Shown: piece after piece, positions 2,793-5,353 of the stretch
Layout of the letters: the number at the start of each line of letters is the position of its first letter
Numbering within the stretch: position 1 is the first letter of the stretch
From: Flavivirga algicola
GTDB lineage: Bacteria > Bacteroidota > Bacteroidia > Flavobacteriales > Flavobacteriaceae
NCBI RefSeq assembly: GCF_012910715.1
Contig: NZ_JABBHF010000010.1
Span: 62,001-126,000, forward strand
DNA: 64,000 bases
Direction of reading: 5' to 3'
Position numbers and translations under genes: made by a program
The notes under the pieces: model-generated
The model's database searches: none
Told to the model about the DNA's origin: nothing
The model's input: only the letters and a program-made list of their open reading frames with translations

Positions 2793-2857
2793 CCTTATTG
2801 CTAGTAGAGAAGATGGGATTATAATTTGTGATCTCTTGACAGCCAACCAAGTCACCT
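2793..2857 (-). pseudogene. Decayed tRNA-Ala 3' part
   Basis: These 65 bases align without gaps to bases 5268-5332, which are the 3' flank and 3' half of the intact tRNA-Ala, with about 50 of 65 identical by eye. The first 13 bases (CCTTATTGCTAGT), just beyond the tRNA 3' end, are identical. The anticodon and T-loop bases are mutated, so it cannot work as a tRNA. The copy has the same orientation as the intact gene and lies 2.4 kb away. It is either a remnant of a second tRNA gene or the far attachment repeat of an old insertion. I see no gene elsewhere in the 410 bp between the lipoprotein and the peptide gene. Confidence 0.75.
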
Positions 2858-2913
2858 ATAACTGTTTTTTATTAAATGCAACAAAGTTGTGTTTGAGTAG
2901 GAGACTTTTTATA

Positions 2914-2930
2914 TTGCAATACTATTGCAA
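2914..2930. promoter_or_regulatory. Perfect 8-1-8 inverted repeat, candidate operator
   Basis: The sequence TTGCAATACTATTGCAA is a perfect palindrome around a single centre base, 61 bp upstream of the small peptide gene. This size and symmetry are typical of operators for Fur-superfamily repressors, and a Fur-family gene lies at 4587-5015. Binding is inferred, not shown. Confidence 0.55.
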
Positions 2931-2990
2931 CAAAAAGAGCAAGCTGAAAGCCTTAAAATAGAGTAGGTATAATATTTAATTTATGTAATT

Positions 2991-3098
2991 ATGAAAAATC
3001 AAAAAGAAGTATCAATCTCACAAATTTTAGCCGAAAAATCGAATGTGGCAGGAAGCGTACACTGTAGTAATTGTGGACATTGTTCTGCTTCATTTTAA
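2991..3098 (+). CDS. Short Cys/His-rich peptide, possible RiPP precursor or metal-binding peptide
   Basis: This 35-codon gene starts with ATG and ends with TAA. The product has a polar, leader-like N-terminal half (MKNQKEVSISQILAEKS), a small-residue stretch (NVAGSV), and a C-terminal HCSNCGHCSASF. The Cys-x2-Cys-x2-Cys plus two His packs five potential metal ligands or modification sites into eight residues. The arrangement of leader, Gly-containing junction and Cys-rich tail resembles a ribosomally made, modified peptide, but no standard modification enzyme (radical SAM, LanB, YcaO, DUF692) is encoded next to it. A strong terminator hairpin lies 10 bp downstream and three genes follow, so this message should exceed that of its neighbours. 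I do not recognise the family. Confidence 0.7.
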   Translation: MKNQKEVSISQILAEKSNVAGSVHCSNCGHCSASF

Positions 3099-3107
3099 AT
3101 ATGTGTT

Positions 3108-3141
3108 ATGGTAGTACGATTTATCGTACTACCATTTTTTA
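3108..3141 (+). terminator. Terminator or attenuator between the peptide gene and downstream genes
   Basis: A perfect stem of about 12 bp (ATGGTAGTACGA with TCGTACTACCAT) and a tiny loop are followed by a T-rich run. It lies between the peptide gene and the next gene 16 bp further on the same strand. Such placement is common where a short precursor must be made in excess over the proteins that act on it. Confidence 0.85.
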
Positions 3142-3156
3142 TGTAGATATTTCAAG

Positions 3157-3573
3157 ATGCAAAGATTAGATAAAAATCAGTTGACAAATCTTCTTCAATT
3201 TAAAAACGAAGATATTATTTCGAGATTTACAGATATGTACAAGATAGAAGCTGAAGAGATTAATGATATTTTCACCGAAACACTCAAGTTCTTATATATA
3301 AGCCAGGTTCCAGGAGTTTTTATACCCGATGATCTTTTAATTATAGATAAAATGTGGCACAATATGATTCTTTTTACCCCAGAATATCACGCTTTTAGTA
3401 AAGCATATTTTAATACCCCATATTTTCATCATGTTCCAGCCTCAAAAAAGGAAAAAGAAGATCGAATGATTAGTGCAAAAAAGGATTCTAAAAAAGCCAA
3501 GGAAGATTATTTACAAAAATTAGAGTTCCTAATTATCCGTAACCTACGATTATTTAGGAGCAGAAACCGTTGA
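3157..3573 (+). CDS. GRDP-like (DUF1399-type) protein with probable 3' frameshift
   Basis: The 138-residue product carries the pattern DKMWHNMILFTPEYHAF followed by YFHHVP, which resembles the W-H ... HH-P signature of glycine-rich-domain-protein-like (GRDP/DUF1399) sequences. The conserved His residues suggest metal binding, but no reaction is known. After KLEFLIIRN the annotated frame ends in an atypical RLFRSRNR. The +1 frame, from about base 3559 to a stop at 3626-3628, reads TYDYLGAETVEKWFKVYAKK, a much more natural continuation. A single indel near 3530-3560, real or a sequencing error, would give a protein of about 156 residues ending 10 bp before the next gene. It is the first gene after the attenuator of the peptide locus. 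Confidence 0.7.
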   Translation: MQRLDKNQLTNLLQFKNEDIISRFTDMYKIEAEEINDIFTETLKFLYISQVPGVFIPDDLLIIDKMWHNMILFTPEYHAFSKAYFNTPYFHHVPASKKEKEDRMISAKKDSKKAKEDYLQKLEFLIIRNLRLFRSRNR

Positions 3574-3638
3574 AAAATGGTTCAAGGTTTATGCAAAAAA
3601 AACAGCAAAGAACAACTTAAAGCATTAAGAAAATAATC

Positions 3639-4136
3639 ATGAGTATTTTTCCAAAAAGAGCTATTCCTGGTAAAACTGTAACAATTCATTGGAATTTTAA
3701 TATCTCCTCATTAAAAAATGTGCACATATTTCCTCGGGTTCGAATTGGGGTTAAAGATCCTAACGGAAATGTTACAATGCTTTTTGAAGAATACGTTTTG
3801 GGCTTGCCTAATTCGGAAGATGAGATAACGCCACAGAAGGAACGAACATTTAAATACCTGAAGAAAAATGTTCCGCTACTATTGCTGGCAGATTATTTTG
3901 ACGGAATTTCTAAGAGAGAACAGTTAATAGAAAGACTTAAGAACATTCAATCAGGAAGGCATTATTATTTCACATATACACTTCCCAATGACGCTCCCTT
4001 AGGGAAATATACGTTGGTTTCTGAAGTACATAGTTCTGGAGAAATAAAATATTCTAAAACAGCAGCCGACGACTTCTTTTTTGTTGAAAAAAAACACTGG
4101 ATAAGATTGAGGAAGGAGAAAAAAGAAAGGCTGTGA
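3639..4136 (+). CDS. Unknown beta-rich cytoplasmic protein of the peptide locus
   Basis: I do not recognise this 165-residue protein. It has no signal peptide or membrane helix. The first 70 residues (PGKTVTIHWNFNISSLKN, then VRIGVKDPNGNV) and the last third (TYTLPNDAPLGKYTLVSEV, then DDFFFVEK) look like strands of one Ig- or macroglobulin-like beta sandwich, interrupted by a Leu-rich helical insert (LLLLADYFDGISKREQL). The C-terminus is highly basic (RLRKEKKERL). It follows the GRDP-like gene and overlaps the next gene by 4 bp, so translational coupling is likely. Confidence 0.75.
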   Translation: MSIFPKRAIPGKTVTIHWNFNISSLKNVHIFPRVRIGVKDPNGNVTMLFEEYVLGLPNSEDEITPQKERTFKYLKKNVPLLLLADYFDGISKREQLIERLKNIQSGRHYYFTYTLPNDAPLGKYTLVSEVHSSGEIKYSKTAADDFFFVEKKHWIRLRKEKKERL

Positions 4137-4579
4137 TTATGAACTATTCACCAGAAAAGACACCTATAAAAATTGTTGCATGTCATCAAAATGAGAAAAA
4201 AGAGCTTAAAACTAAAGCTTGCGTTTTTGAGATTGAACCCCAACAAAAAACCGAAATAGAACTTACTTCAGATAAGGAGTTTTTATTATATAATGAAGAA
4301 AGGGAAGTTGTCTCTCTGACAAGCTTATCATCGTCTTATTTGCTCCGAAATCAACAAATACTGGAAATAGATAAAAAGAATGGCCCTACTTTTTTATTAA
4401 AAAAGGATAAAGCTGAAGCTTATCAATTAACAGCAGAAACAAAAACGCTGTGGAATAAATCGGATGGGCTTTTTCAAAAAGATCAAATATCAGGAAGTGA
4501 AATGGATATTTTTGAAGAAATGACTTCTGAAGAGCTGATCAAAGAAATGATAATGGGTGTTCCAGGAATTATTCATTAA
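4133..4579 (+). CDS. Unknown protein, last gene of the peptide locus
   Basis: This 148-residue protein has no signal peptide, membrane helix or recognised domain. The start is either GTG at 4133, overlapping the upstream stop as GTGA, or ATG two codons later at 4139. The N-terminal half has strand-like segments and two Cys residues (KIVACHQNEKK, TKACVFEIE). The C-terminus is acidic, then hydrophobic (EELIKEMIMGVPGIIH). Its end lies only 7 bp from the end of the convergent Fur-family gene. Its role is presumably tied to the upstream Cys-rich peptide, by context only. Confidence 0.7.
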   Translation: MIMNYSPEKTPIKIVACHQNEKKELKTKACVFEIEPQQKTEIELTSDKEFLLYNEEREVVSLTSLSSSYLLRNQQILEIDKKNGPTFLLKKDKAEAYQLTAETKTLWNKSDGLFQKDQISGSEMDIFEEMTSEELIKEMIMGVPGIIH

Positions 4580-4586
4580 TTAGTTT

Positions 4587-5015
4587 TTAACTGGAAAGAC
4601 AGGCGTGACAAATACCGTTGATGGTATAGCTTATTTTTTGTACCAAAAACTTTTCTAAAACTTGAATTTTTGGGATTTTAACATCGTCCAAACAGTAAGT
4701 TTGTGAGCATTTATCACAGATAATATGAACGTGTTCATCTGTATGTGTTTCTTCTGGGCACTCGTGGCTGCATAAGGCATACCTTATGCCATGACTATCC
4801 TCAGAAGCTTTATGCAATATACCATGCTCTTCAAAAGAACTTAAAGTTCTGTATATTGTTACTCGGTCATGGGTTATTTTCATATGAGAGATGACTTCTT
4901 TTGCCGATAATGCATAATCATAATCCATAAATATTTTAAGCATTTCTATACGCGCAGAAGTTTTTTTTAACCCATGAGACTCAAGTAGTTCTTCTATATG
5001 TTTTTGTATGTTCAT
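4587..5015 (-). CDS. Fur-family transcriptional repressor
   Basis: This is a metal-dependent repressor of the Fur/Zur/PerR superfamily, 142 residues long. The winged helix lies in residues 1-75 (recognition part HDRVTIYRTLSSFEEHGIL). The dimerisation part has a structural zinc site formed by C100-x2-C103 and C136-x2-C139, and a His-rich sensing segment (HTDEHVHIICDKC). Which metal it senses cannot be decided from sequence alone; Zur is plausible. It is convergent with the peptide locus and may bind the 17-bp palindrome at 2914-2930. tRNA-Ala lies upstream. Confidence 0.92.
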   Translation of the reverse strand: MNIQKHIEELLESHGLKKTSARIEMLKIFMDYDYALSAKEVISHMKITHDRVTIYRTLSSFEEHGILHKASEDSHGIRYALCSHECPEETHTDEHVHIICDKCSQTYCLDDVKIPKIQVLEKFLVQKISYTINGICHACLSS

Positions 5016-5240: not shown

Positions 5241-5273
5241 ATAAGGCAGTTATAAAAATTGTAACTGCCTTAT
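5241..5273 (-). terminator. Terminator after tRNA-Ala
   Basis: A perfect 12-bp stem (TAAGGCAGTTA with TAACTGCCTTA plus one more pair) with a 9-nt loop begins 7 bp beyond the tRNA 3' end. On the minus strand it is followed by a T-rich tract. Confidence 0.75.
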
Positions 5274-5279
5274 TGCTAG

Positions 5280-5353
5280 TGGAGAAGACGGGATTCGAAC
5301 CCGTGACCTCTTGACTGCCAGTCAAGCACTCTAGCCAACTGAGCTACATCCCC
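5280..5353 (-). tRNA. tRNA-Ala(GGC)
   Basis: Read on the minus strand, the gene folds as a complete cloverleaf: acceptor GGGGATG, D arm with AGCTCAGTTGGCTAGAGT, anticodon stem CTTGA/TCAAG with loop CTGGCAG (anticodon GGC), and a T arm with GGTTCGAACC. The acceptor has one T-T mismatch and one G-T pair. CCA is not encoded. A decayed copy of its 3' half lies at 2793-2857. Confidence 0.95.

Follow-up and report, generated by a model that had tools for sequence, protein, structure and literature searches.

Methanobactin is made from an operon (mbnA-BC-M-T) in which a tiny ribosomal precursor with a Cys core, a MATE exporter and a TonB receptor are encoded together under metal-starvation control. 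Zincophores of the pseudopaline type are small molecules that enzymes synthesise. Among gene-encoded zinc scavengers the nearest is, to our knowledge, ZepA. In the available text of PMC10957091, ZepA of Anabaena is described as a Zur-controlled exoprotein for zinc uptake. The Zur targets listed for other phyla in the available text of PMC6103462 are COG0523 GTPases, TonB receptors, metallophores and zur itself, and the Zur-controlled metallophores described there are small molecules. DUF4374 lipoproteins are described, in the available text of PMC13142918, as binding siderophores beside TonB transporters and PepSY proteins.

The operon analysed here is present as a remnant in the window, the whole stretch of 64,000 nucleotides from Flavivirga algicola under study, and in intact form in relatives. 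It resembles the methanobactin operon in carrying both a TonB receptor and a MATE gene at all seven loci viewed over a wide range (the MATE gene is not listed on the Aureibacter plasmid pAT2). In contrast to methanobactin, no DUF692/MNIO enzyme (MbnB, with MbnC) was matched among the operon proteins scanned, the operon MATE protein is not MbnM (22.3 vs 285 bits), a DUF4374-type lipoprotein and an ABC-2 transporter are added, and zinc instead of copper would be the metal. Membership in the methanobactin family was rejected, as its defining DUF692 enzyme was not seen in the operon proteins scanned. With ZepA, as described in the available text of PMC10957091, the operon would share gene-encoded and secreted zinc acquisition under the control of Zur, but that description sets ZepA apart as a whole protein, against a predicted peptide of about 13 residues here. 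Metallophore genes with a TonB receptor under Zur are a likeness to the pseudopaline-type zincophores (PMC6103462, available text), whereas the ligand here would be gene-encoded. The DUF4374-type lipoprotein beside the TonB receptor is shared with XusA-XusB xenosiderophore uptake as described in the available text of PMC13142918; the present operon differs in having an ABC-2 transporter and its own peptide gene, and no PepSY gene was seen among the proteins scanned at one locus (L030) or among those listed on pAT2. On that ground the Xus system was rejected. The absence of a PepSY gene is allowed by a metal that needs no reduction. One cluster of grasp-with-spasm graspetides (L108; TIGR04192/TIGR04193) also has a GRDP-like gene; the ATP-grasp/SPASM enzyme is not seen in the present operon, and a graspetide was rejected because no ATP-grasp ligase was found among the operon proteins scanned or those listed for pAT2. 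Two further likenesses lie in the upstream region: the DUF805b RNA (RF02914), and a palindromic Fur-family box which, as in a Zur regulon, is common to zur-like and zinc-chaperone genes (absent in 2 of 16 loci).

Peptide gene and operon organization

The features of the window copy are listed below with coordinates, strand (where assigned) and basis.

2793..2851: left edge of a 2,475-bp interval, formed by a degenerate repeat of the tRNA-Ala 3' part (positions 5268-5326)
2877..2891: Fur-family box, weakly kept, 3 mismatches to TGCAAYANTRTTGCA (box scan)
2915..2929: Fur/Zur-type box TGCAATACTATTGCA, a perfect 7-1-7 palindrome spaced 38 bp from the preceding box (box scan)
2934..2969, plus strand: DUF805b RNA (RF02914), 26.3 bits, under the gathering score of 35.6 (Rfam model)
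2991..3098, plus strand: Cys/His peptide, putative precursor, 35 aa, leader plus HCSNCGHCSASF (ORF list, relatives, pN/pS)
3108..3135, plus strand: 12-bp hairpin after the peptide stop, with compensatory changes (folding, covariation across loci)
3157..3633, plus strand: remnant of the GRDP-like gene; open frame 3157-3573, part of the C-terminus out of frame (ORFs, relatives, profile)
3639..4136, plus strand: N-terminal half of c1, whose frame breaks off near 4091 (ORF, relatives)
4133..4579, plus strand: C-terminal half of c1 in another frame, last residues from beyond the deletion (relatives, junction alignment)
4535..4548: deletion junction, about 11.4 kb absent (left side, c1 3' end; right side, Aquimarina methyltransferase/Fur stretch)
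4587..5015, minus strand: Fur-family regulator, 142 aa, PF01475 50.5 bits (Pfam; relatives)
5279..5353, minus strand: tRNA-Ala (GGC), right edge of the interval (tRNA search)

The 35-codon gene of the original prediction was confirmed: the ORF at 2991-3098 ends in HCSNCGHCSASF, and the peptide is encoded at all 17 distinct loci with c1. These are 14 loci from contigs of relatives plus the window, L003 and L147 (the Aureibacter plasmid pAT2); G008 and L017 (Flavivirga jejuensis) are one locus counted once, for which L002 stands in the DUF805b count, and the relatives within the genus are G008 and G010. At every one of the 17 loci the frame is kept and precedes the GRDP-like gene and c1, and on sequence grounds its occurrence is beyond chance. 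The peptide frame proved conserved in relatives and c1 is always accompanied by the peptide (17/17); homologues of the GRDP-like gene also occur with partners other than the peptide and c1.

The core HCSNCGHC was found in 16 of the 17 loci, including the window. The remaining locus (L019, 3362-3472) has HCGGGGHC, in which the middle Cys is missing and both His-Cys pairs are kept, and this variant points to a site of two His and two Cys. The core residues H, C, G, H and C do not vary as protein, although their codons do; pN/pS, determined with 11 of the 17 loci, was 0.19 in the core and 0.65 in the leader. At the level of sequence, a gene-encoded precursor with leader and conserved core, as in a RiPP, is present at 17/17 loci. 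The Cys-rich peptide model TIGR04165 gave 18.7 bits for the window and 16.0 bits for L006 against a cut-off of 60 bits. In word searches of the literature, with most subscription journals lying outside, the peptide was undescribed, as were DUF805b and bacterial GRDP in connection with RiPPs.

A hairpin had been predicted directly downstream of the peptide gene as a terminator or attenuator. The hairpin itself was found in all 16 loci examined, 8-10 nt past the peptide stop with a stem of 10-14 bp, and at several positions both members of a pair have changed. In most loci a short T-run comes next, but L003/L017, L016, L018 and L019 lack a clear one, so that the terminator or attenuator role is supported only in part. 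The DUF805b RNA reached or exceeded the gathering score in 14 of 17 loci (8 of 11 sources, five more from a further 7, and L147 with 53.4 bits), located directly after the boxes and directly before the peptide; it was not found in L016 and L018. Elsewhere in the genome of the window, two strong matches to DUF805b were detected (44.7 bits). In that genome, two strong DUF805b RNAs precede two function-unassigned small proteins with signal-like N-termini, as judged by eye (L047 and L048; G000:C34:158359 and 158895).

Intact operons were found in Aquimarina, Flavivirga, Marinoscillum, Cyclobacteriaceae and one Aureibacter plasmid. Downstream from c1, all seven wide loci carry a TonB receptor (Plug, CarbopepD_reg_2), a DUF4374-type lipoprotein, an ABC ATPase, two DUF3526/ABC-2 permeases and MATE, and five carry a DUF5916 protein; gene content was counted by sequence clustering, and family names were assigned on example loci. 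The Aquimarina operon ends with a convergent methyltransferase gene followed by the Fur gene. On pAT2 (L147) the order is box, DUF805b, peptide, GRDP, c1, TonB, DUF4374 and ABC genes, and MATE is not among the genes given in the incomplete gene table of this stretch. The DUF4374 model scored 29.9 bits at L017 (cut-off 25) and remained below the cut-off at L030 (24.9) and L016 (18.3); the family is annotated on pAT2. The four TonB receptors tested were nearest to the MxcH siderophore receptor model (493-542 bits, cut-off 925). Directly before the operon on pAT2 (L147 2918-12693) are genes for a TonB receptor, an HmuY-like protein, CobN, an ExbB-type protein and DUF2149, a second metal-type system on the plasmid.

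In agreement with the original prediction, which noted the absence of known RiPP enzymes, no recognised peptide-modifying enzyme was detected by Pfam and NCBIfam among the operon proteins of the window, L006, L017 and L030, and no leader peptidase was recognised in the operon. The c1 protein has no Pfam match, PqqD-type domain included. Its C-terminus gave a weak, RRE-like match to 30 PqqD sequences (hhalign probability 12.9%, P 0.0022), against controls of 0.1-0.3% with one side reversed, 6.5% with both sides reversed and 2.7% with whole c1.

Decay of the window copy

The two coupled genes described earlier for the window turned out to be halves of one gene of about 306 aa, c1, which the 16 other loci all encode as one ORF of 304-310 aa. 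The GRDP-like gene, about 159 aa in relatives (ORFs of 158-192 aa, with upstream starts in some), is represented by the predicted ORF at 3157-3573 but is frame-disrupted: the C-terminus shifts out of the first frame for a part and returns to it in the final residues. It has no direct Pfam match. The proposed system of a peptide with three companions is thus a remnant with two disrupted genes, from which the transport genes are gone.

Two Aquimarina genomes have 11,426 and 11,428 positions between the end of c1 and the end of the Fur gene, whereas the window has 8. In an alignment of positions 4450-4700, the left side is 73-75% identical to the c1 3' end and the right side 81% identical to the methyltransferase/Fur stretch, the two overlapping at 4535-4548. 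Because both sides of the junction align in this way, the transport cassette of about 11.4 kb is lost from the window in one deletion. The frame losses, taken alone, might be sequence errors; a deletion of about 11.4 kb is hard to explain as such. A close replacement for the cassette is absent from the genome, the best TonB match being 32% identical and the best permease match 27% and partial.

The first half of the window c1 is 76-83% identical to three Aquimarina loci and 65-67% to the Flavivirga-type loci. The remnant is flanked by a direct repeat of 59 nt (2793-2851 and 5268-5326, 81% identical) derived from tRNA-Ala. Since c1 is nearer to Aquimarina than to its own genus and the interval is bounded by a degenerate fragment of tRNA-Ala and the tRNA itself, the interval was probably acquired horizontally. 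The repeat of the tRNA 3' part resembles the pattern left by elements integrating at tRNA genes; no integrase-like long ORF is present between the two copies. With the cassette deleted and the frames of c1 and GRDP lost, the window copy, which belongs with the Aquimarina version of the operon, is in our reading dead. The window is then a clear example of operon death, in which the peptide and the regulator remain and the transport cassette is gone.

Fur-family boxes and the candidate metal

The convergent Fur-family gene predicted to end 7 bp from the last ORF is indeed present, and its product is 85% and 82% identical to the Fur proteins closing two Aquimarina operons. The box consensus is the palindrome TGCAAYANTRTTGCA (7-1-7). 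Upstream of the peptide, at least one box with no more than two mismatches was found in 14 of 16 loci, against 0-0.03 per region in shuffled sequences, and two boxes spaced by 37-39 bp were found in 12 of the 16. Both Flavivirga-type loci among the 16 examined have no Fur-family box.

Over five genomes, 41 box sites were detected versus 10 for the pattern read backwards (forward/backward: G486, 14/3; G490, 5/0; G491, 10/0; G000, 6/2; G008, 6/5); G008 thus shows no excess. Among 28 sites viewed in 26 stretches, 13 are inside long ORFs and look like chance matches. The 15 others include ten with a telling neighbour and five with none. The telling neighbours are two Fur-family genes (L086, L075), a ZigA-like zinc GTPase (554.8 bits, cut-off 600), a TonB receptor with a lipoprotein after it, a DUF6660 protein, two secreted S8 peptidases (see below), the operon itself and, in L092, a paralogue of the operon ABC ATPase (52% identical). 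An additional box precedes a Fur-family gene in G488 (L041), and a MerC-like protein, recognised by eye, is encoded 399 bp from the box of L087, counted among those without a telling neighbour. In Flavivirga, a ZigA-like gene (558 bits) is located two genes past the methyltransferase closing the operon.

Because the neighbours of the boxes match the listed Zur targets (COG0523, TonB, metallophores, zur; PMC6103462, available text), zinc is our best guess for the metal of the operon. Against this, none of the Fur-family proteins exceeded the cut-off of the Zur model (window Fur, 34.7 vs 167 bits; others lower or alike), and they score about equally against the iron Fur model.

Genes for secreted S8 peptidases lie 208 and 404 bp from a box in an Aquimarina and a Cyclobacteriaceae genome (L068 1739-2956, by Pfam; L089 1-1137, by eye), and are candidates for a leader peptidase or a zinc-starvation protease.

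Proposed function and GRDP-like partners

For the intact operon we propose, with confidence about evenly divided, a zinc-starvation operon controlled by Zur that encodes a ribosomally made zinc metallophore. Conservation, operon content, the boxes with their other genes, the RNA element, the covarying hairpin and the deletion were computed; from these we infer zinc as the metal, the repressor, cleavage, modification, export and re-uptake. Under low zinc, the Fur-family repressor (Zur) would be released from the boxes, and the DUF805b RNA would form a short leader ahead of the precursor peptide. The hairpin may keep the peptide message abundant, leaving less transcript for the companions. Neither the GRDP-like protein nor c1 shows a signal peptide by eye; the two would bind and prepare the precursor of about 36 aa, which would be cut, probably near GG/GS before the core THC(SNC/GGG)GHC, to a predicted product of about 13 residues of the THCSNCGHCSSTL type. 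This product could be exported by MATE and/or the ABC-2 transporter, bind zinc through His and Cys, be captured by the DUF4374-type lipoprotein and then be re-imported by the TonB receptor. The reading as a gene-encoded metallophore is based on the fit between a Cys/His product, an exporter, a capture lipoprotein, a TonB receptor and a metal-starvation promoter. A metal role is likely. The original prediction of a RiPP or metal-handling system is supported in this, as in the conserved peptide and the lack of a known RiPP enzyme among the proteins scanned; the window, however, is not a working three-companion system. The functional argument comes from the transport genes and box targets, both outside the view of that prediction.

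The GRDP-like protein has no direct match to PF07173 and is linked to it by way of L099, which profile A2 matches (E 1e-8) and which scores 21.5 bits against PF07173 (cut-off 22.7). Cys-rich tails are carried by 17 of 20 GRDP-like homologues elsewhere, compared with 23 of 297 control ORFs, and for this reason GRDP seems to partner Cys-rich peptides in general. A possible extension, offered tentatively, is a peptide zincophore for which the GRDP-like domain serves as a handler of Cys-rich peptides across phyla: the peptide would be a former C-terminal tail, now a separate gene, whose product is prepared in trans and, after export, brought back with zinc. The Cys-rich peptide would then usually be the tail of GRDP itself, as in Bacteroidota, Bacillota, Actinomycetota, Rhizobiaceae and E. 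coli plasmids.

These tails in cis would also fit a cytosolic carrier. The peptide could be an intracellular zinc carrier or buffer, metallothionein-like, acting with GRDP and c1 without export or modification, the TonB/DUF4374/ABC genes importing a foreign zincophore. This is rather unlikely in our estimate; it gains from the absence of a known RiPP enzyme domain in GRDP and c1, and from the paralogous ABC ATPase behind a box in L092, on a 3.1-kb stretch without an HC...GHC peptide, but a leader-like N-terminus and a short core behind GG/GS suit a secreted product better, and the separate tiny gene with its own hairpin, together with MATE in 7/7 wide loci, favours secretion. Another metal with the same architecture, that is, a ribosomal iron siderophore or copper chalkophore under Fur instead of Zur, we regard as unlikely. 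Cys/His cores bind copper too, and the TonB receptor is nearest to a myxochelin siderophore receptor model; against this stand the box shared by the ZigA-like GTPase and small Fur-family genes, the ZigA-like gene near the Flavivirga operon, and the operon without a PepSY gene seen (L030 proteins, pAT2 list). The DUF4374 proteins studied to date, according to the available text of PMC13142918, bind ferric siderophores, in favour of iron.

An antimicrobial RiPP taken up by the TonB receptor as a Trojan horse, with the transporters for export or immunity, is very doubtful: one GRDP-like protein does occur inside a grasp-with-spasm RiPP cluster, and another has an ABC transporter and a JmjC protein as neighbours on E. 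coli plasmids, but most bacteriocins have neither Fur-family boxes nor a near-invariant core such as that kept over the 17 loci. A working split version in the window, made up of three small proteins and the peptide, is hardly credible. Its ORFs are open for 138, 165 and 148 aa, the peptide and one box are intact, and the frame losses alone might be errors; but c1 is one gene in 16 other loci, the DUF805b RNA of the window is degenerate (26.3 bits), and the junction, where about 11.4 kb is gone and c1 has acquired a foreign 3' end, strongly disfavours it.

If the zinc metallophore reading is true, the ligand would be readable from the sequence and directly testable, c1 would gain a function, the orphan DUF805b RNA a context and the GRDP-like domains a suggested role; their Cys-rich tails extend over several phyla and mobilizable E. 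coli plasmids.

Several further arrangements of GRDP-like genes were observed. In the cluster of L108, the gene lies with TIGR04192 (342 bits) and TIGR04193 (306 bits), both over the cut-off. On small mobilizable plasmids (L149 3106-6331, E. coli plasmid pLAU-OXA6, and L148), a GRDP-like domain fused to a Cys-rich tail is encoded ahead of an ABC transporter and a JmjC_2/cupin protein, which looks like an undescribed peptide-modification cluster; the gene is present in 36 of 5426 E. coli genomes. In two distant Bacteroidota (L107 10066-11169, L109 10105-11229), a protein of about 370 aa with SSCSSCSSC-type end repeats is encoded downstream from the GRDP-like gene. GRDP-like proteins with Cys-rich C-termini were also found in Agrobacterium (L153 3827-5063), arranged in tandem, in Rhizobium (L154 3920-4510) and in Streptomyces (L155 3875-4330), where a radical SAM gene is located close upstream.
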